A stretch of 33,471 nucleotides of DNA from a virus. The stretch is from positions 1 through 33,471 of the IMG/VR virus record IMGVR_UViG_3300010318_000019. One strand, given 5' to 3'. Numbering within the stretch: the first letter of the stretch is position 1; each line of letters starts with the position of its first letter. Positions 6,193-20,991 of this stretch are shown in pieces. Under the pieces are notes generated by a model, which was not told the origin of the DNA, made no database searches, and saw nothing but the letters and a program-made list of their open reading frames with translations. Both the position numbers and the translations under genes were made by a program.

Positions 6193-6364
6193 GCCATCCC
6201 TCCTCTTCAGTTTGCGCGTCTAGCCATCCCGCCTTCCAGGAGCAGAACATCCCCAATCGAACCCTGCTAATGGAAGAGGAATCGATCCCCTTCCCCTGGT
6301 GATAGGCAGCGCGGCCCAAAAGATAGTGATTAAAATATTTCCAGCGAGCCTTAACGTCTCTCAT
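6176..6364 (-). CDS. Ribosome-modulation-factor-like small protein
   Basis: This 62-residue protein has the pattern GRAAYHQGKG followed by a serine-rich linker and then WKAGWLDA. Ribosome modulation factor and its phage relatives share an A-x3-G ... W-x2-GW-x2-A arrangement, so it may bind ribosomes or RNA. The match is by pattern only. Its ATG overlaps the methyltransferase stop (ATGA). Confidence 0.5.
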   Translation of the reverse strand: MRDVKARWKYFNHYLLGRAAYHQGKGIDSSSISRVRLGMFCSWKAGWLDAQTEEEGWRGIEH

Positions 6365-7527
6365 GGTCTCACCTCCATCATTGCTCTTATTATTTCTGCT
6401 CCGACTTGCGGGACAATCGCGTTCCCGTAGGCGCGCAGTCGTCCCACCCTATTGGGTATCCCATGAGCCAGCGGCTCAATGCTGGATTCAATGCGCCTCG
6501 CTTTTCCGTCTGCGCAGTCGATCCATGTTCCGTCCCAATGACTTGATGAAGCACTTGATTCGGTAACTGCTCCCCCTTCGAACTCCCGCCCCGCTCTGAG
6601 TAAGGCTTTACGTTCGGAAAGCGATAATCTCTCGTTGCTGGCGTGGCCCATCCTGCTGCTACGTCGATCAAGCTCGCTCCCCTCTTGCCGTCGTTCTGGC
6701 TCCTCCCGTGCGCGTCCACAGTCCTGGGAGTCGGCCAGCCTGCTGCTGCTGCCGCCGCCCCTAAGGTCAGACCGGCTCCATTCCCATTGATCCGCTTTTC
6801 TTTGAGCTTGTCGATCCGGGCTTTGTGCTTCTCCCAATCCGCTCCCGCGTTCATCGCGCTCGCGTCTGGGGTCGGCCAGCCTGCTTTCCGTCCCGGTCCT
6901 TGCCTCGGGATTTCCTTCACTCCTGACGCGAAAAGAGCCGCATCGGTCAGAGTCGTTCCCGGATTCGAAGTCCAATCGTCCTGCTGGGCTGTCGCTCTCC
7001 GCGAGCCAACTTGATCCTGAGTCGTTGGGGTAGGCCATCCACCATAGTCGCTGGCGGATGTGGGGCGCGCCGACGCTCGCAGCGCACAAATCGATGGCCC
7101 CGACCGCATAGCCTGACGCTTCCAAGTCAGTTCGAACTCCGGCGAGCCATTGGTATCCAAGACGCGACGAAACCTGCTCTCCACAAACTGCTGGAGGGCG
7201 AAGCTGGTCAATGAGGGAGTGAAAGACGGGCCAGAGGTGGCGTTCGTCGGATTCTCCTTTCCGCTGTCCTGCGGCTGAGAAGGGCTGACAGGGACAAGAT
7301 CCGGTCCAGAGGGGTCGGTCGTCAGGCCATCCAGCAAGTCTAGCTGAGAGAGACCATCCACCGATCCCAGCAAATAAGTGGGCTTGCGTAAATCCTCTGA
7401 TCTCATCAGGAGAGACCTCCTCAATCGATCTTTCATCGACCTCGCCGCCAGCGATCAGACCCTTATCAATGAGGTTCCGAAGCCACTGCGCAGCATAGGG
7501 ATCGATCTCGTTATAGTAAGCCGCCAT
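6361..7527 (-). CDS. DNA cytosine-C5 methyltransferase
   Basis: This 388-residue protein carries the C5-methyltransferase motifs in order: LFAGIGG (51-57, AdoMet binding), [11 protein letters not shown] with catalytic Cys80, EQV (117-119, in place of the usual ENV), IRQRLWW (158-163), and a C-terminal YGNAIVPQ (about 367-374). It would methylate cytosine in a short DNA site, probably protecting phage DNA from host restriction. No cognate endonuclease is seen. Residues about 170-345, where the target-recognition domain should be, are very rich in Ser, Arg, Glu, Asp and Gly and look disordered; the recognisable TRD-like part is near 345-365. The GEQV variant occurs in related phage enzymes. A second long ORF overlaps almost the whole gene in another frame. 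Confidence 0.85.
6390..7436 (-). CDS. Overlapping-frame GWPTP-repeat protein
   Basis: This 348-codon ORF lies wholly inside the methyltransferase gene, on the same strand but in another frame. Its protein looks real: [22 protein letters not shown] and [12 protein letters not shown], then GWPTP/GWATP units at about 7031, 6873, 6733 and 6645, and a C-terminal [17 protein letters not shown]. From memory this is a widespread phage and bacterial family, usually labelled hypothetical or methyltransferase. The same DNA word reads LAD/MAY/MGH in the methyltransferase frame and WPTP/WATP here. The ATG has GAGG three bases upstream. Either both proteins are made, or this frame is open because of the constraint on the other one; function unknown. 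Confidence 0.5.
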
Positions 7528-11776: not shown

Positions 11777-14700
11777 TTAGTTTGCCTCCAGTGCGGCCAC
11801 CTTGGCCTCTAAGGTTTCAATGCGCTCCATTGCCTCTTGCAAGGCTTTGACGGCCTTCATGTAGAGGACGGAGTAGTTTACCGTCTTGGTGCTAGTGTTT
11901 TTTTCGGTTCCGTCAGGGTTCTTGTCTGGGCTTTCAGTCACCAGACCGCCCATGCCTGCGGCCTCAAGCTCTTGGGCAATAACGCCAAGCTGGTTCGGCG
12001 CATCAAGGGCATCTGCCTTCATACTGTACTTGCGAACGCGCAGGGCTTTAATGTCGTCCCATTGCGAGCCGCTGTCTACGATGTTCTCTTTCAGTTTAAT
12101 GTCGGAAATTGCACCGTAACTGTTATTAGTATTCGTGACGTCGCCGTTGGTCGTGACGTTAAATGAAAGGGTGCCGTTTGTTGGAGCCGTGCTGCTGTGC
12201 CAGCCAACAAACAAAGAATTGGTCGTATTTGCGCCGTTTGTACTTCTAGCGTTGATGCAATCGCCAGCACCGACACCAAAGTTCCACGACCCGGTATTAG
12301 CGCAAGTCCCCCTCGGATTCCCATCCCCGTCCGACAGCACGACGTAGTTGTTTGAGGTGCGGATGTCGAGACCGCCAGCGTTGCCGTCGTAGCGACCGAG
12401 GATGGTGTTGCTGGCACCGGTCGTTATTTGGGAGCCAGCACCGCGCCCAACAGCCGTGTTCTTTGCGCCAGTAGCGTTATATAAAGTGCCTGTACCAATA
12501 GCCACATTGTCAGAGCTAGTGACATTACTGTATAGCGCGGACCAACCAATGGCTGTATTGGTCTCTGCCGTTGTTGCGCTATACGATGCATGATAACCAA
12601 CAGCCGTATTGTATGCGGCGGTAGTATTGGAAAACAGCGCGGAATGACCAACCCCGGTGTTGTAATTGCCTGTCGTATTGGCAACCAGCGAATTGAACCC
12701 CAGAGAGGAATTATATGACCCTGTGGTGTTTACTTTTAGCGCTTGCTGACCAACGCCGGTGTTATGTTCCCCGGATGTATTTCCATACAGGGCAGTCCAA
12801 CCAACGGCAGTTACGCCACTCGTAGCTGTGTTTGAATACCCAGCCTGATAACCAACAGCGGTGTTGTAGGAAGCGGTGGTGTTTTGATTTAACGCCCCCG
12901 TACCCATTGCCACGTTGTAGGAGCCAGTGGTGTTGGCGGCTAACGGCGCACCAACAGATACCCCGTCTGTGGTTCCAAATGCCGAGTTACTTGTCCCCGT
13001 AGTGTTGCTATATAAAGCTCCAGCACCAAATGCTGCAATGGCACTACCAGTGGTGTTGTTATAAGCGGATTGAAAGCCAACAGCAGTGTTGTAGCTGGCG
13101 GTGGTGTTGGAGAACAGAGATTGAACACCGAGTGCTACGTTGCTCCCGCCAGTAGAGTTAGTGTAGGCGGCGTGGTAGCCAATAAAAGTATTATTGTTTT
13201 GTGTGTTGTTGTACCCGGCCTGCATCCCAACAAAAGTGTTCTGGATTTGCGCGATATTTGAGTAGCCTGCTTGGTATCCAAAAAAAGCGTTACTAAACCC
13301 AATCGTGTTGCTATACCCAGCCTGATAGCCCACAGCCGTGTTGTTGTCGGCGGTGGTGTTGGAGCGTAGTGCGTAATTGCCTAATGCTGTGTTGTTTGCG
13401 CCTGAAGTTAGGGACAGGAGAGAGTGCAATCCAAACGCAGAGTTATCTGCGCCCGTAACAACGCCAACCCCCATTGATGCTTGCCCAACCGCAGTGTTAT
13501 TACTTCCTGTAGTAAGCGCACCAGCCGCACCGCTGCCCATAACAGTGTTGTACGAGGCAGCTGTGGCGGCATCTCCCGCTTGATAGCCTACAAAGGTGTT
13601 ATCAATACCCGTCGTATTGGCGTACCCAGCCTGATAACCCACAGCAGTGTTGCCGGAGGCGGTGGTGTTTAAGTAGAGAGCACGATAACCCTGAGCCGTG
13701 TTGTTGGCGCCAGTGGTGTTGGTGTATAGGGCATCTGCGCCAAAAGCGACGTTGTTGCTGGCGGTGGTGTTTGAATCGAGGGCTCTATAACCCTGAGCGA
13801 CGTTGTTAGCGCCGGTGGTGTTGCTGCGGAGGGCTTGGCGCCCTATGGCGACGTTGCTGTACCCGGTGGTGTTAGCGTAGAGGGCTACTCGGCCCACGGC
13901 GGTGTTGTCCGCGCCGGTAGTGTTGCTGTAGAGGGCTTGGTAGCCCTGAGCGACGTTGTTCTCGCCGGTGGTGTTGGTGTAGAGGGCGCTTTGCCCAATG
14001 GCAGTGTTATTGCTGGCGGTGGTGTTGCTATAAAGCGCTTGGTAGCCCTGAGCGACGTTGTTACCGCCGGTGGTGTTAGCGTCAAGGGCTCGGTAGCCCA
14101 CAGCGACGTTGTTACCGCCGGTGGTGTTGCTATAGAGAGCACGATAACCCTGGGCAGTGTGGCCGTTGCCGGTGGTGTTGCTGTAAAGGGCTTGGTACCC
14201 CTGGGCCACGTTGGCGGTGCCAGTAGTGTTGCTGTAGAGGGCTTGATAGCCCACAGCCGCGTTGTTGTTGGCGGTGGTGTTGGCCTGGAGTGCGGATACA
14301 CCCACGGCAACATTTGAATCACCCGTGCTATTAGCCGCTAAAGAAGCTGTTCCAATGCCAACATTGTTTGCCCCTGTGGTATTTGAATAAGCGCTTCTTC
14401 GGCCTATGCCAACATTACTGTGGCCAGTTGTATTTGCTGTTAATGCTTGGTCACCAATGGCTACGTTGTAGTAGGAACCGGCTTCTGTTGAATCAAGAGC
14501 GGTGTCCCCCATAGCAACATTCTGTGTACCAACAGGATAATTCCCATCCAGCTTGATCGTGCCGCCGTCGATGGAGACGTTGCCTGCTACGGTGAGGCCA
14601 TCAGCCGTGACGGTGCCGGTTACGTCGATGCCGGTGGCGGTGGTGACAAACCTCTCAGCATTGTCGTAATACAACTGGACAGAGCCGTCAGTATTAAATT

Positions 14701-14998
14701 TAGCCTTAAACTCAGTGTCTGCTGAATTAACAATATTCAAGTTGTCGGCATTAACAATAAGGTTGCCACCGCCGTTTTCTTTTAATATTGAGTTTTCACC
14801 GTCGCTGTAAATCTGTAGGTCCGACCCAGCACCGAAGATGGCCTTCTCGTTATCCCCGAAAACGATATTCCCACCCGCGCCAATGCCCGAGGGAAGCTCG
14901 GAGAGCTGCACCTTCACATTCCCACCCGACCGCACCGCAATTAGGTAATCGGTACTCTGTAGGGCTCCGCCGTCGGATAGCTCGGAAATCTTGCTCAT
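11777..14998 (-). CDS. Repeat tail fibre with S74 intramolecular chaperone
   Basis: This 1,073-residue protein has an N-terminal part (about 1-150) likely to attach to the tail, then roughly 42 copies of a 17-residue unit such as GYQALYSNTTGADNTAV, and a C-terminal peptidase S74 domain (about 965-1073). The repeats resemble left-handed beta-helical trimeric adhesin heads. Ser965 in SDIKLKENI is the expected self-cleavage residue; the chaperone removes itself after trimer folding. A coiled coil closes the protein. It probably binds the host surface. The repeats vary less in the middle than at the ends. Confidence 0.88.
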   Translation of the reverse strand: MSKISELSDGGALQSTDYLIAVRSGGNVKVQLSELPSGIGAGGNIVFGDNEKAIFGAGSDLQIYSDGENSILKENGGGNLIVNADNLNIVNSADTEFKAKFNTDGSVQLYYDNAERFVTTATGIDVTGTVTADGLTVAGNVSIDGGTIKLDGNYPVGTQNVAMGDTALDSTEAGSYYNVAIGDQALTANTTGHSNVGIGRRSAYSNTTGANNVGIGTASLAANSTGDSNVAVGVSALQANTTANNNAAVGYQALYSNTTGTANVAQGYQALYSNTTGNGHTAQGYRALYSNTTGGNNVAVGYRALDANTTGGNNVAQGYQALYSNTTASNNTAIGQSALYTNTTGENNVAQGYQALYSNTTGADNTAVGRVALYANTTGYSNVAIGRQALRSNTTGANNVAQGYRALDSNTTASNNVAFGADALYTNTTGANNTAQGYRALYLNTTASGNTAVGYQAGYANTTGIDNTFVGYQAGDAATAASYNTVMGSGAAGALTTGSNNTAVGQASMGVGVVTGADNSAFGLHSLLSLTSGANNTALGNYALRSNTTADNNTAVGYQAGYSNTIGFSNAFFGYQAGYSNIAQIQNTFVGMQAGYNNTQNNNTFIGYHAAYTNSTGGSNVALGVQSLFSNTTASYNTAVGFQSAYNNTTGSAIAAFGAGALYSNTTGTSNSAFGTTDGVSVGAPLAANTTGSYNVAMGTGALNQNTTASYNTAVGYQAGYSNTATSGVTAVGWTALYGNTSGEHNTGVGQQALKVNTTGSYNSSLGFNSLVANTTGNYNTGVGHSALFSNTTAAYNTAVGYHASYSATTAETNTAIGWSALYSNVTSSDNVAIGTGTLYNATGAKNTAVGRGAGSQITTGASNTILGRYDGNAGGLDIRTSNNYVVLSDGDGNPRGTCANTGSWNFGVGAGDCINARSTNGANTTNSLFVGWHSSTAPTNGTLSFNVTTNGDVTNTNNSYGAISDIKLKENIVDSGSQWDDIKALRVRKYSMKADALDAPNQLGVIAQELEAAGMGGLVTESPDKNPDGTEKNTSTKTVNYSVLYMKAVKALQEAMERIETLEAKVAALEAN
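12390..14525 (-). repeat. Tandem 51-bp repeat array within tail fibre
   Basis: About 42 in-frame units of 51 bases encode the 17-residue fibre repeat. Units near 13680-14290 are most alike, many containing GCCGGTGGTGTTG on the plus strand; those at 12400-13600 and near 14300-14525 are more diverged. This gradient suggests recent expansion in the middle by unequal exchange. Confidence 0.8.
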
Positions 14999-15352
14999 TT
15001 AGTCCTCCACCTGCGGCCAGTCTGCCGCATCAAGATTAGGCCAGTTTACATGATCTGTCAGGTCTCGTAGAGCCTGGCGGTATATCCCATACGCTGCCTT
15101 CTGCTCGTCCGTCAGAGGCGCGTCGGGGAGCTGGGTCCAGTCCGTCGACGATAGAAGCTGGTTCCGGTATTCCCGATTAGCTGCCGCCCTCTCGGCCTCC
15201 AGAGCATCCGTAGGAGCCTCGGAAAGCGCTTCCCCATCCCATGACAGCCTAAACGGATTCAGCCCCTCTGGAATCAATACAGCGCCTTTCGGGGGCTCCT
15301 GCCCCTGATAGATCGAGATGATCTCGTCGCCTTCAATGACCGCCCATTTCAT
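14999..15352 (-). CDS. Tail assembly chaperone-like protein (hub/fibre)
   Basis: This 117-residue protein has an N-terminal part rich in strands and a C-terminal helix with LLSSTDWTQLPDAPLT and YRQALRDL. This matches the C-terminal pattern of phage tail-assembly chaperones encoded next to tail fibres (family with a TDWTQ-x-PDAPL motif). It lies between the hub and fibre genes and overlaps the hub end by four bases. Such proteins help fibre trimerisation or attachment and may not stay in the virion. Confidence 0.7.
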   Translation of the reverse strand: MKWAVIEGDEIISIYQGQEPPKGAVLIPEGLNPFRLSWDGEALSEAPTDALEAERAAANREYRNQLLSSTDWTQLPDAPLTDEQKAAYGIYRQALRDLTDHVNWPNLDAADWPQVED

Positions 15353-18300
15353 CGCTTCAGCCTCACTGCCTGGATATACGTTCCCGGCGCCCTAAAGGTT
15401 CGCGGGAATGTTCCGTTCGTATTCGTAGCCGCCTGCAAAATGAAACGCCAATCTGAGTCGTCCGCCGTGATGCTGTACTGCATCGTGCTGGAGAATAGCG
15501 CCTGCTGAATCTGCGCCCAGTTGGTCGTATCGTAAAACGCATCTCCGATGAAATACTGAGTGGCTTTAAGCGTAGTCCCTTGATAGACCAGCACTCGGAT
15601 GGCGATATAGGGCGCCCCAGAGGCTTCAGGGTGCGCCCTCAGGCCCCACGAAATCTCGGCAATATCACCATTAGAAAAGGTCTGGCCGGTAAGACTAGCA
15701 AGGCTTATGAAGCTGGTGGAATAGTTTGTATTTGACGCCATATCGGCTCGGGCGGTGTTCGTGATAGCCCGAGTCCCTACCTGCGTCGTCCCTACACCCC
15801 CGTTAGCGATAATCAGGTTGCTTCCCGACGTATCAAGCGTCACGCCGTCAATCGCCAGTCGGTTAGCGTTGATCGTCCCAGAGACCACTAGATCGCCGTT
15901 TATCTCAACGTCAGAGGTAAATAGCGCCTTCCCGCCTGAAATCTGGAAGGGAACAATTGGGGTCGATGAGGTAGACGCTGGGTCTACTACAGAGAACTTG
16001 TCCGCGATGACTGCGAACTCGGAGAACGGGGTAGCATCCGCAACCGTCGAGAGAAGCCCGAAGCCAGAGATGCGATTGTTCGCATCAATCTTGACGGTGT
16101 AGTTGGCTTCGATCCCGTTGATGCTGGTGGCATTGGTAGTGATGGACGCGGTGTTATTCCCAACAGTTGTTGTTAGAGACGTTACGTCAGATGCGATAGA
16201 CGTAATGCTCCCCTCTGCGCTTGTAACCCTCGTATCTAGGCTAGACACCGCAGTGGCGTTGGTAGTGATATTGGACTGAGCCGTTGATAGACCAGCCTGG
16301 AGCGTCGTCACATCCGAGGAGATGGAAGTGATCGATCCTTCTGCTGAAGTGACCCTTGTATCTAGCCCACTGATCGCCGTGGCATTAGTCGTCACGTTCG
16401 AATTGGTCGTGGTCAGCGACGATTGAAGGCTGGTTATATCGCTTGCCTGACTGGTGATGCTGCTCTCTGCTGCGGTGACCCTAGTGTCCAATCCTGAAAT
16501 CGCCGTCGCGTTCCCGGTCACATTGGTGTTTGTCGTGGTAAGCGAGGACTCTAGAGTGCTGATATCGGACGCATTGGTGGTGATATTTCCTTCAGCAGTC
16601 GTTACCCGAGTTCCCAGAGAACTGATCGCGGTAGCGTTAGCCGCCACCCCTGTGGTCGGATCGTTCACTGTGGACTGAAGTGTGGTTATGTCCGACGCAT
16701 TCGAGGTGATATTCCCCTCCGCAGTCGTGACTCGCGTGTCCAGCCCAGAGATCGCGCTAGCGTTAGTCGAAACATTGCTGTTCGTCGTTGTTAATGAGGA
16801 CTCAAGGGCCGTGATATCTGAGGCGTTAGAAGTGATGTTCCCTTCTGCCGTGGTGACGCGGGTCGAGAGCGAGGAGATCGCCGTGCCGTTCGCGCTAATG
16901 TCGCCCTCTGCGGTCGTTAGATCAGCTTGCAGGGTGCTTACGTCAGAGGCAATCGACGTAATCAAGCCTTCCGCGCTGGTCACTCTTGTGTCGAGACCGG
17001 AGATTGCGGAAGCGTTGGCCGTGATATTCGTTTCGGCAGTCGTAAGGGATGACTGAAGGGTAGTAATGTCCGAAGCGTTAGAGGTGATATTTCCCTCTGC
17101 TGTCGTCACCCGTGCGCCTAGCGAACTGATCGCGCCAGCGTTGGTCGTTATATCCCCTTCAGCCGTCGTTAGGTCCGCCTGGAGCGTCGTTACGTCGGCG
17201 GCAATGGAAGTGATCTCGCCTTCTGCTGTCGTGACTCTAGTGGTAAGGGAAGAGAGGCCAGAAGCGTTCGCTGCGATATTGCTTTCTGCCGTCGTCAAGG
17301 ACGATTCAAGGGTCGTGATGTCAGAGGCATTAGAGCTGATGCTCCCCTCTGCCGTGGTGACCCGTGCTCCTAGAGAACTAATGGCGCTGGCGTTGGTAGT
17401 GATATCTCCTTCTGCGGTCGTCAGATCCGCTTGAAGCGAAGTCACATCTGAGGCGATAGAAGTGATGCTGTTCTCGTTAGATGTAACCCGCGTCGTCAGC
17501 GAGGAGAGCCCAGAGGCATTCGCGGCCACGCCAGTGGTCGGATCGTTGACCGTCGATTTAAGATCAGTGATCGCGCTCGCCTGCGTCGTCAGTTCTCCTT
17601 CCGCCACGGTGGTCCGGGAATCAAGAGACTGAATCGCCGTGCTGGTGCCAGCAGTTAAATCGTCCAGGGTTTCTAGGTCGAGCTCTCCAGTGGTCTCCAG
17701 TTCAAGAGGATCGGCATCAGCCTCATCTTCGACTTTCGTTAAGAAGTCGAGGCGAGTGGTGAGAATCGTGGTCGATTGAGCTTCACTTGTTACCTGCCCC
17801 TCTACCGTTGTGACTCGCGTATCCAGCCCGGAAATCGCGGTCGCATTGGCGGAGATATCGGTTTGAGCAGTAGTGATCGCCCCAGCATTAGTAACGATAT
17901 CCGCCTGAGCAGTTGTGAGATCGCTGGAGAGAGTAGAAATATCGCTGGTGTTTACGCTGATTGAGCTTTCGGTACTCGTCACCCGCGTCGTGAGAGCGGT
18001 GAGCGCCGTCGCGTTTGTGGTGATATCACTTTGGGCAGTGGTTAAATCGGACTGAAGGCTAGTTATGTCCGACGCCTGACTGGTTATCGAGGTTTCATTG
18101 CTAGTGACGCGAGTATCTAGCGCAGTGATCGCGGTCGCATTCGTTGTGATATCAGTCTGCGCCGAGGCCAGACTGGATTGAAGCGTCGTGATATCTGTGG
18201 CGTTGGAGGTGATATCTGTCTCAGTTTGAGTTACCCGAGACTGAAGCACAGTGATCGCGTTAGAGGTCGTCGAGAAGTTCCCGCCTTCATCTTCCAGCGC

Positions 18301-20991
18301 CGTCTCAAGATCCGTAATGTCTGCGCTGATCGCCGTGATGCTATTTCCCTGATTCGTTACGGTCGTGTCCAGGGTGGAGATCGCCGAGGCGTTTGCGGTG
18401 ATTGCGCTGGCATTCGTCGAGATATCTGCGGTGTTAGTATCGATATCTCCTTCCGCAGTCGTCATCCGCGCCTGGAGAGCAGTGATGGAGGATGCGTTTT
18501 GGCCGATTCGGGGATCTAGGAGAGAGACCCACGCCGTCCCGTTCCAGTAATAGGGCGCGTTGTTGTCGTCCGTGTCGTACCAGCGCGAGCCATCAGGGAT
18601 TGGGTCAGGGATGCCGCCGACGCCTGCGACCGGAGCGCTGTCTTGCAGGTATACGTCAGCAACGCCTGCGGTCACATCGCTGAGAAGTCCCTGCAAATTC
18701 TGTACTGAGCCCTCTAAGTCATTAAGCTCTCCGCGCAGCGTCGTGTTGCTTTCATTGACAAAGATCGCAACGTCGCCCAGGTTCTGGATATCGACTTCGA
18801 GCCCCGTCTCTAGGTTGAGGATTGTTTCCCCTTCCAGTTCGACGTTGAGGATCTCTTGAGCGAGAACGGAATTATGAACCTCAGTCGTGAGGTCAACAGT
18901 CTCTAAGACGACCGTCGTATCTCCGCCAGCAGAAACCCATGCACTCGCATTCCCGGAGCGGTCTAATGAACGGAGCCAGTAGTATCGAGTCGTTCCAACG
19001 GAGAAGGGACCATCCACATAGGCTTCCGCATCCACAGTCGCAATGACTGATGCAGAACCTTCGACGTTCGTGGCCGCGCTCTTGATTTCTACATGGAGAA
19101 AGTCCGAATCGGATGGGTTCGTCCAGGCGATGTGGATAAAGTGATTATCCGCTGAAACAGTGGGAGATGTGGGGACACCAGGCGCTGTGGTGTCACCGCC
19201 CAGGACGACCGTTGTGCTTGCATAAGAACTCCGAACCCCTAAAGCGTTGACCGCCCTCACCCTTACATCAAAGGTGAAGCCCACCTGAGGGACCGGAATC
19301 TCATATTCCGTTCCGACCGTGTTGATTGTTTTGTATACGCTGTCCGCCTGCTTCTTCCACTCCACTTCATAGTGATCGACGAACGCATCACTCGCAGCGG
19401 TCCAGGAAACATCAATCGTGGGAATTAAAGTTCCATCGCTATCGATCCGCGATCCTTCCGTGGCGGTGAGGCTCGTCGGGGGCTGAGTCGTTTTCCCATC
19501 ATAGAGAGTGACTTCCCCGCCCGAGAGGAAATCTTCCGCATCATCGGAGAGCCAGTTGTAAATGGAAGAGGCGGTTTCAATGCATCGAAGGTCAACGCGA
19601 ATCCCGCCAGAGGGCTCGATGGCGATGGCGTAATCCACCACTTCGAAGGGCTTTTGATCGTAACCCATGCGGTCGTTCGTAATCTGGATCACATCCCCAG
19701 CTTTGAACTTCAGGCCAGCGAGGTTTACCGGGACAGTGATCACGGTCTGCTGGCGGCTCTTCAAAAGAGCAACCTTTGCTAGACGCTGTGCCTGCTCGTT
19801 ATCCGTAACGAACGGAAGCGGCATATCCAGATAAATGGGATCGCCGTCCTCCGTGGCATAGGTCGAGGAGATCTGAGCGGGGTAATCCGCGACGGTGTAA
19901 TTCTTCTCCTTGGAGAGAAAGATCCCTTTGACCCCGTTGTACTGGCTGCGACGGGATTGGCGCGTTTGAACTTGAATCTGGCCCACCATCACCGATTCAT
20001 CGATGGTGATCGTCGGGCTCACATATTGCGCGGCGCGGATGAAGTAAGATCCCCCGGAATAGACCAGCATCCCGCCCATCGCAGAGAGCATCGAATCGAT
20101 GTTCTCTTTCCTGGAATTCGCGGTATCCACGATCCCGTTGATCTGAAGCTGGGGGATCGGATCGGCATTCGAATCGAGATCGATATCGCAATAATCCGCA
20201 GCCGTTACCAGAGCGGAGGAATTGATCAGAGCCGCATCTTCCCCAAGGCCATATTTGGAATCGACCAGATAATCCCGGACTGCTAGAGCGGGGTTCTGGC
20301 TCCAGGTCCAGGTTGAGGAGTCATTGACCCGATGGGTATCGACCCCCACGCTCGCATCGTAATGGGAACTGGTGGAGTCCTGGCGGGGGTCGTAAATCTT
20401 CTTTCCCCGAACAATCGCGGAGACGTTTGGGATGCCATTCGGGAACTGATCGGGATCATATTCCAGGCGGACGTAAAGATAGGCGGTATCCCGAAGGATG
20501 TGATCATTCGTCCAGGCTGCGCTCTCAGAGACCAGATCGGAATCCGCTGTGGTCTGGTCGCCTTTATAGAACTTGATCCGAGCATATGAACCCCACCCAC
20601 TTTGGTAGGTGCCTTGCCAGACCTTTTCATCATTGAAATAGACGGACTCGAAGGCGTCGATCTCATGGCCCGCCATTGCGATGACCATATGAAGGTATTT
20701 GTTATCCGCCCCAGAGGTGGTGATGTAGACCACCGTTCCACCAATCCGAGATCGCCCATAAACAATCTTCTTTGAGGTCGCGGGTTCTCGAACTGTCGCC
20801 GTTAATCCCGCTAAGGATGCTCCGGTGTTTAATTTAGGCTTCGGAGCGAGGGCTCGACTGACCACACTGAGACCAGCCCCAATCGCAAAGGCAGCAGCAG
20901 CCGCGCCGAAGGTGAGTGCAGTCCCAGCGACGACTGCCGAAACTGCTGCGCCACCGACTGCGGCGATACCTGCGACAACGGCGACGGCCAT
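15349..20991 (-). CDS. gpJ-like central tail hub/tip protein with long coiled-coil repeat
   Basis: This 1,880-residue protein has a hydrophobic Ala-rich N terminus (1-50), a tail-hub region of the gpJ type (about 60-500), two fibronectin-III-like domains (about 507-697), a heptad-rich repeat zone (about 835-1620), a DUF1983-like domain as in lambda J (about 1630-1760), and a C-terminal receptor-binding-like part. The repeat unit resembles TTAEGxITSNASDITTLQSSL and gives a long trimeric coiled coil. In lambda this protein ends the tail and sets host specificity. It is longer than lambda J (1,132 residues) because of the repeats. Confidence 0.85.
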   Translation of the reverse strand: MAVAVVAGIAAVGGAAVSAVVAGTALTFGAAAAAFAIGAGLSVVSRALAPKPKLNTGASLAGLTATVREPATSKKIVYGRSRIGGTVVYITTSGADNKYLHMVIAMAGHEIDAFESVYFNDEKVWQGTYQSGWGSYARIKFYKGDQTTADSDLVSESAAWTNDHILRDTAYLYVRLEYDPDQFPNGIPNVSAIVRGKKIYDPRQDSTSSHYDASVGVDTHRVNDSSTWTWSQNPALAVRDYLVDSKYGLGEDAALINSSALVTAADYCDIDLDSNADPIPQLQINGIVDTANSRKENIDSMLSAMGGMLVYSGGSYFIRAAQYVSPTITIDESVMVGQIQVQTRQSRRSQYNGVKGIFLSKEKNYTVADYPAQISSTYATEDGDPIYLDMPLPFVTDNEQAQRLAKVALLKSRQQTVITVPVNLAGLKFKAGDVIQITNDRMGYDQKPFEVVDYAIAIEPSGGIRVDLRCIETASSIYNWLSDDAEDFLSGGEVTLYDGKTTQPPTSLTATEGSRIDSDGTLIPTIDVSWTAASDAFVDHYEVEWKKQADSVYKTINTVGTEYEIPVPQVGFTFDVRVRAVNALGVRSSYASTTVVLGGDTTAPGVPTSPTVSADNHFIHIAWTNPSDSDFLHVEIKSAATNVEGSASVIATVDAEAYVDGPFSVGTTRYYWLRSLDRSGNASAWVSAGGDTTVVLETVDLTTEVHNSVLAQEILNVELEGETILNLETGLEVDIQNLGDVAIFVNESNTTLRGELNDLEGSVQNLQGLLSDVTAGVADVYLQDSAPVAGVGGIPDPIPDGSRWYDTDDNNAPYYWNGTAWVSLLDPRIGQNASSITALQARMTTAEGDIDTNTADISTNASAITANASAISTLDTTVTNQGNSITAISADITDLETALEDEGGNFSTTSNAITVLQSRVTQTETDITSNATDITTLQSSLASAQTDITTNATAITALDTRVTSNETSITSQASDITSLQSDLTTAQSDITTNATALTALTTRVTSTESSISVNTSDISTLSSDLTTAQADIVTNAGAITTAQTDISANATAISGLDTRVTTVEGQVTSEAQSTTILTTRLDFLTKVEDEADADPLELETTGELDLETLDDLTAGTSTAIQSLDSRTTVAEGELTTQASAITDLKSTVNDPTTGVAANASGLSSLTTRVTSNENSITSIASDVTSLQADLTTAEGDITTNASAISSLGARVTTAEGSISSNASDITTLESSLTTAESNIAANASGLSSLTTRVTTAEGEITSIAADVTTLQADLTTAEGDITTNAGAISSLGARVTTAEGNITSNASDITTLQSSLTTAETNITANASAISGLDTRVTSAEGLITSIASDVSTLQADLTTAEGDISANGTAISSLSTRVTTAEGNITSNASDITALESSLTTTNSNVSTNASAISGLDTRVTTAEGNITSNASDITTLQSTVNDPTTGVAANATAISSLGTRVTTAEGNITTNASDISTLESSLTTTNTNVTGNATAISGLDTRVTAAESSITSQASDITSLQSSLTTTNSNVTTNATAISGLDTRVTSAEGSITSISSDVTTLQAGLSTAQSNITTNATAVSSLDTRVTSAEGSITSIASDVTSLTTTVGNNTASITTNATSINGIEANYTVKIDANNRISGFGLLSTVADATPFSEFAVIADKFSVVDPASTSSTPIVPFQISGGKALFTSDVEINGDLVVSGTINANRLAIDGVTLDTSGSNLIIANGGVGTTQVGTRAITNTARADMASNTNYSTSFISLASLTGQTFSNGDIAEISWGLRAHPEASGAPYIAIRVLVYQGTTLKATQYFIGDAFYDTTNWAQIQQALFSSTMQYSITADDSDWRFILQAATNTNGTFPRTFRAPGTYIQAVRLKR
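16140..18490 (-). repeat. Coiled-coil repeat zone in the hub gene
   Basis: About 780 residues of heptad-like repeats (ITSNASDITTLQ, AISGLDTRVTTAEG and variants) are encoded as imperfect DNA repeats. Successive units alternate between the SDITTLQ and TRVTTAEG halves. Such arrays extend trimeric fibres and can change length by slippage or recombination. Confidence 0.8.

Follow-up and report, generated by a model that had tools for sequence, protein, structure and literature searches.

A likely split C5-cytosine methyltransferase encoded by two overlapping reading frames of a viral contig, with a nested subunit carrying a cassette array

The window, by which we mean the whole stretch of 33,471 bases analyzed here, is the viral contig IMGVR_UViG_3300010318_000019. 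On its minus strand, two long reading frames share about 1 kb of DNA: frame A, which carries motifs of C5-cytosine methyltransferases, and frame B, which is offset by +1 and lies entirely within A. The preliminary description of this DNA had reported a second frame of 348 codons inside the first and on the same strand, and these coordinates are borne out. Frame B is indeed open for 348 codons from 7436, but its likely start is the second ATG, at 7406, giving a protein of 338 aa. The features of the locus are the following.

6361..7527, minus strand: frame A, 388 aa, predicted catalytic subunit of a C5-cytosine methyltransferase (motifs II/III, I, IV, VI, VIII, and X; PF00145, phrog_363, M.HhaI-like model)
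6390-7436, minus strand: frame B as an ORF from its first ATG, 348 aa, offset +1, entirely within frame A
6390..7406, minus strand: frame B from its likely start, 338 aa, proposed specificity subunit (co-occurrence with A, codon tests, profile match)
7407..7426, minus strand: Shine-Dalgarno region of frame B, AGGAGG 8 nt before the ATG; upstream sequence GATTGAGGAGGTCTCTCCTG
7276..7299, minus strand: motif IV of frame A (SCPCQPFS, with the catalytic Cys); PCQP invariant in the alignment
7071..7211, minus strand: N-terminal core of frame B, predicted helix and beta hairpin (EFELTWK ... ICALRAS), overlapping motifs VI-VIII of A
7045..7071, minus strand: motif VIII of frame A (GAPHIRQRL), from the alignment and a position check
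6537..7040, minus strand: linker of frame A over the cassettes, open, nearly unconstrained, and predicted disordered
6882..7040, minus strand: cassette 1 of frame B (GWPTPTTQD...), a close relative of which is absent from our set
6741..6881, minus strand: cassette 2 of frame B (GWPTPDASA...), with a relative in locus L171
6654..6740, minus strand: cassette 3 of frame B (GWPTPRTVD...), with relatives in loci L001 (position 1) and L011 (position 3)
6537..6653, minus strand: cassette 4 of frame B, member of a 54-copy cluster
6444..6497, minus strand: motif IX-like segment of frame B, with a profile match to the motif IX of single-chain enzymes; the overlapping Ala codon of A is GCT
6400..6453, minus strand: motif X of frame A, from the alignment; also matched by the A profile in the single-chain region

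The GWPTP or GWATP units of frame B occupy positions 7014-7040, 6855-6881, 6714-6740, and 6627-6653, exactly where the preliminary description had placed its four units. Its statement that frame A encodes all the motifs of a C5-methyltransferase has to be corrected: A lacks both motif IX and an ordered recognition domain, which are located in B.

Several tests indicate that both frames are coding. When frame A was shuffled synonymously, preserving its protein and its codon counts, the longest +1 frame reached a mean of 154 codons, compared with the 354 observed (P = 0.0006), and the length of the +2 frame was ordinary in the same test. Among 77 distinct homologs, the +1 frame contains 191 stops for 372 expected and the +2 frame 1035 for 1005 expected. 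Both frames are present, always in the same +1 relation, in each of the 249 loci scanned, a set drawn from phages and from genomes of bacteria belonging to many phyla. These comprise 169 of 169 viral-contig and phage loci, a set collected mostly with A or B as the query and in which one frame is interrupted in a few cases, and 80 of 80 bacterial-genome loci fetched by B alone, where A is always present. The bacterial-genome set spans Proteobacteria, Planctomycetota, Verrucomicrobia, a member of the Leptospiraceae, and others. No B without A was found among the 249 loci.

The depletion of stops is mutual. Given the protein of A, frame B has 6 stops for 93 expected in the cassette part and none for 115 expected upstream of the cassettes; given the protein of B, frame A has none for 229 expected in the cassette part. 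In the same test, no stop depletion was seen in the third frame of the cassette region. Frame B is also kept open in a T4-like phage whose gene has a GC content of 45%, and high GC is therefore not the cause. Dual coding of this locus is real. This was the first of two options raised in the preliminary description; the other, a mis-annotation of one of the frames, disagrees with a frame B that is open in the homologs and constrained in the GWPTP region, that is, with the opposite of the relaxed, stop-containing B that mis-annotation predicts next to an intact A.

To locate the constraint, we compared related loci in pairs, one block at a time. In the cassettes, position 1 of A codons, which is position 3 of B codons, is the most variable (.199 vs.090 and.094) and ranks top in 73 of 85 pairs. 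Upstream of the cassettes, position 3 of A changes fastest (.189 vs.085 and.059), the pattern of a normal gene for A. Amino-acid identity follows the same partition: in the cassettes, B has.867, A.759, and the third, non-coding frame.744; in the upstream overlap, where B is only weakly constrained, A has.897, B.787, and the third frame.766. By this pattern of codon positions and identities, selection acts on the protein of B in the middle of the locus and on that of A at both ends. Across the cassettes, A evolves like a non-coding frame, yet stays open. In a first, cruder similarity permutation, a 5' control encoding A only also scored z = 4.3, and in the comparison by blocks the third frame reached z = 6.9 upstream; we therefore built the argument on stops, codon positions, and codon choices rather than on similarity z-scores. 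Codon choice in A is affected in turn: the Ala codon of its LAHG motif, lying under the WLMG of B, is GCT in 127 of 129 homologs, compared with 19% elsewhere, because B requires that T for the Leu of WLMG. Synonymous sites of A are thus fixed where B needs them.

The initiation signal of frame B is conserved. A Shine-Dalgarno-like word like that of the window, followed by a start codon for B, occurs within codons 26-45 of A in 134 of 183 loci, versus 4 in the third frame; a clear signal of this type is missing in about a quarter of the loci. The Shine-Dalgarno of B sits on the invariant Arg33 of A, which is encoded by AGG in 35% of the genes, compared with 4% for the remaining Arg codons in the catalytic part. 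This AGG is the price that A pays for the Shine-Dalgarno of B. A second candidate, a Shine-Dalgarno with a TTG start of B at codons 116-118, was rejected as a by-product of the GEQV motif of A.

Frame A matches PF00145 (E 9.9e-14, above the family cut-off) and phrog_363 (E 1.4e-78), and GN is invariant in its alignment in addition to PCQP. Its structural model matches M.HhaI (Z 15.3, 162 residues, 2.3 Å). Residues 1-167, the catalytic part, are well predicted and the C-terminus is ordered; residues 171-298 are unstructured, mostly with pLDDT under 50. The alignments used for structure prediction exclude rows from annotated-phage loci. From the M.HhaI match and the unstructured middle, A seems to be the large domain of such an enzyme without its recognition domain. 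Consistently, a profile of A matches the VIII-X region of single-chain enzymes at motif X only. Frame A thus shows the family match, catalytic PCQ, SAM-binding fold, and motif X of a C5-cytosine DNA methyltransferase, and lacks the recognition domain and motif IX that a complete enzyme has in the same chain; for this reason we classify it as a catalytic subunit and not as a complete enzyme. The order of motifs in A seems to be permuted: a motif II/III-like segment in residues 4-60 (window 7348-7518; ... VDERSI) precedes a motif I-like segment, with motif IV shortly after it. On the M.HhaI side, the structural match begins at residue 34.

From 184 B proteins, we cut 533 cassette units with a median length of 38 aa, a count that, judging from the second largest cluster, takes in some hairpin segments of the N-terminus. 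Most B proteins carry one to seven cassettes, three or four being the commonest numbers. One cassette type recurs at different positions in different genes: the 54-member cluster of window cassette 4, obtained by single linkage at 50% identity, a procedure under which the largest clusters may be mixed, includes units at positions 1, 2, 3, 4, and 6. The AlphaFold model of B is of low confidence (mean pLDDT 57), the N-terminal core being its best-predicted part (pLDDT 76-86), and a structure search with this model gave nothing above Z 3.4. No match to B was found among Pfam and NCBIfam models or PDB sequences. In PHROG, B is assigned to phrog_1008, labeled "DNA methyltransferase," a label that may reflect the locus only. 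The distance from motif IX of B to the following motif X of A is 41 nt in 110 of 134 homologs.

Gp69 of the actinophage Wachhund, a Mycobacterium phage (L255), is a single chain with motifs I-VIII, LPTPxxxD cassettes, WMMGWP as motif IX, and motif X, and so are most of its relatives. In Gordonia phage Upyo (L254), two successive genes, gp54 and gp53, encode motifs I-VIII and then cassettes, motif IX, and motif X, respectively. Both resemble the window in having cassettes, here LPTPxxxD, followed by a motif IX, here WMMGxP; they differ in that Wachhund has one chain and Upyo has cassettes, IX, and X together in the second gene. When 80 B proteins were combined into a profile, it matched the single-chain actinophage enzymes in their VIII-X region, over the cassettes and motif IX (E 6e-9), and an earlier B profile matched Upyo gp53 (E 2.6e-6). 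In a second methyltransferase family, found via Podoviridae ctjLE16, it is again the +1 frame that carries the cassettes and motif IX; motif X is read in frame 0, usually 41 nt past motif IX. The B proteins of this family match those of the window type with E 8e-31, the N-terminal core included. As judged from these sequence matches, the GWPTP units of B are homologs of the recognition cassettes that single-chain actinophage enzymes carry in tandem, its WLMGxP ending is homologous to their motif IX, and B is very probably the sequence-recognition half of the methyltransferase. The profile matches and the B proteins of the second family suggest that B is the specificity half that A lacks, and not the moonlighting protein that had been envisaged.

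Other arrangements were observed among the relatives. In the Wachhund gene (L255:1609-3030), a B-like N-terminal part (ETWPKTGYMSDGRAYELP...SSSLPTP) can still be read in the +1 frame, so that a second small overlapping protein may persist in single chains. In the actinophage relatives L280 and L281, the cassettes and motif IX are in the +1 frame and motif X was not found in frame 0; these are possible intermediates between the split and single-chain forms. In Klebsiella michiganensis (L249:2196-3444), one frame runs from motifs I-VIII of A into the cassettes and motif IX of B, with motif X in another frame, which is either a natural join of A and B or an assembly error.

Tandem recognition units are known from the multispecific C5-methyltransferases of Bacillus subtilis phages, which carry several units of ~40 aa in a row between motifs VIII and IX of a single chain. 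The array of B likewise corresponds to tandem units between VIII and IX, but in the window it belongs to a separate subunit encoded in another reading frame. Two-polypeptide C5-methyltransferases are also known, the nearest case being M.EcoHK31I, whose small polypeptide, according to what Lee, Kam, and Shaw reportedly described in 1995, is nested in the gene of the large one in another frame. Frame B shares this nesting. The target of M.EcoHK31I is YGGCCR; its large polypeptide carries motifs I-VIII and X and a predicted recognition domain, and motif IX is found only in the small polypeptide (PMC3404938). By the described motif layout, on which this comparison rests rather than on sequences, A and B divide motifs I-VIII and X on one side and IX on the other in the same way. 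They differ in that the small subunit of the window carries arrays of recognition cassettes, whereas recognition in M.EcoHK31I has been placed in the large subunit. With recognition-like cassettes in B, the enzyme of the window would work like M.EcoHK31I but is not assigned to the same type; the finding also questions the location of target recognition in M.EcoHK31I. M.AquI similarly consists of two polypeptides with motif IX in the smaller one, but the smaller one also contains motif X and the variable region is split between both (PMC3404938). Upyo is closer to M.AquI than the window is.

We consider it highly likely that the locus encodes a split C5-cytosine methyltransferase, made of a catalytic subunit A and a multi-cassette specificity subunit B in overlapping frames. 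Both frames are under selection, and the cassettes of B are modular and homologous to the recognition region. The two proteins would be translated from one message, B initiating at the internal Shine-Dalgarno about 40 codons into A. A would supply the catalytic large domain, with SAM binding, the catalytic Cys, motifs I-VIII, and motif X, and would have a disordered linker in place of the usual recognition domain. B would supply a small core at its N-terminus, followed by four GWPTP cassettes for target recognition and by motif IX. We infer that A and B pair into an active enzyme and that each cassette recognizes its own short DNA target; methylation of several sites might then protect the phage from several host restriction enzymes.

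Other explanations have to be weighed against this one. It is extremely unlikely that only frame A is a gene and that B is a shadow of the motifs and codon bias of A, mis-called in databases. A does dominate in the upstream overlap (.897, as against.787 for B and.766 for non-coding), B has no curated family, and some features of B are by-products, such as the Shine-Dalgarno-like TTG starts derived from GEQV. However, in the cassettes it is B that is constrained and A that resembles non-coding sequence, the stops of B are depleted beyond the effect of the protein and codon use of A, also at 45% GC, and A-synonymous sites are fixed where B needs them. Alternatively, B might be a real protein with another job, such as a regulator, an inhibitor, or a DNA mimic, merely sharing the locus. 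The largely low-confidence model of B, whose binding to A or to DNA we infer, gives this reading some room, but no B was found on its own among the 249 loci, actinophages have the cassettes and motif IX in the methyltransferase chain itself, and A has neither motif IX nor an ordered recognition domain; we regard it as unlikely.

A programmed frameshift from A into B, producing a fusion chain instead of a separate protein, would resemble the K. michiganensis locus, where A (I-VIII) is read into the cassettes and IX of B in one frame. This is very improbable: B has its own Shine-Dalgarno-led start and is already open ahead of any join, and a fusion would not need A to stay open across the cassettes up to motif X, as it does with 0 stops for 229 expected. 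Finally, B might be selected with only its motif IX mattering to the enzyme, recognition residing in the middle of A, which is the view taken in the literature for M.EcoHK31I (PMC3404938) and would fit a middle part that is kept open. That part varies as much as a non-coding frame does and is predicted to be disordered, while the cassettes of B are conserved, modular, and homologous to recognition-region cassettes, so that this possibility appears quite unlikely.

Beyond the window, we lean toward the view that the split enzyme with its nested subunit represents a widespread class of phage methyltransferases, in which the specificity subunit is a shuffled cassette array in the +1 frame. A would tolerate almost any open sequence there, cassettes could be swapped with both proteins left intact, and recombination would be unable to separate the two subunits. 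A same-strand gene overlap of this kind would be conserved very broadly across bacteria and their phages, with A as the constrained frame at either end and B between them. The cassettes point to a stock of interchangeable modules for cytosine recognition, and the arrangement offers a testable account of how phages could alter several methylation specificities at once.

Such a class would also account for a set of "hypothetical" GWPTP proteins and for contradictory annotations. As anticipated, public records are muddled, and annotate frame A, frame B, or rarely both. In the phage K1G deposit, both overlapping genes are annotated, the inner one as "Mte8-like"; in Komagataeibacter phage phiKX1 and Salmonella phage W5_chr3, the inner frame is annotated and the outer is not; in Escherichia coli genomes, it is the outer frame that is annotated. 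We found no report or explanation of this overlap in phage methyltransferases in the open-access literature searched. Overlaps of this kind have thus been seen before, as annotations, and two-polypeptide C5-methyltransferases were already known; what is new is the breadth of the overlap, the cassette arrays in the nested subunit, and the placing of target recognition in B.

Elsewhere in the window, a 1073-aa ORF (11777-14998) contains a tandem repeat of ~51 bases and multiples thereof at 13660-14283. It encodes a repetitive, tail-fibre-like protein with a Peptidase_S74 endosialidase-chaperone domain near its end. A further ORF of 1880 aa (15349-20991) contains a long run of ITSNASDITTLQSSLTTA-like repeats, which probably form a coiled coil.
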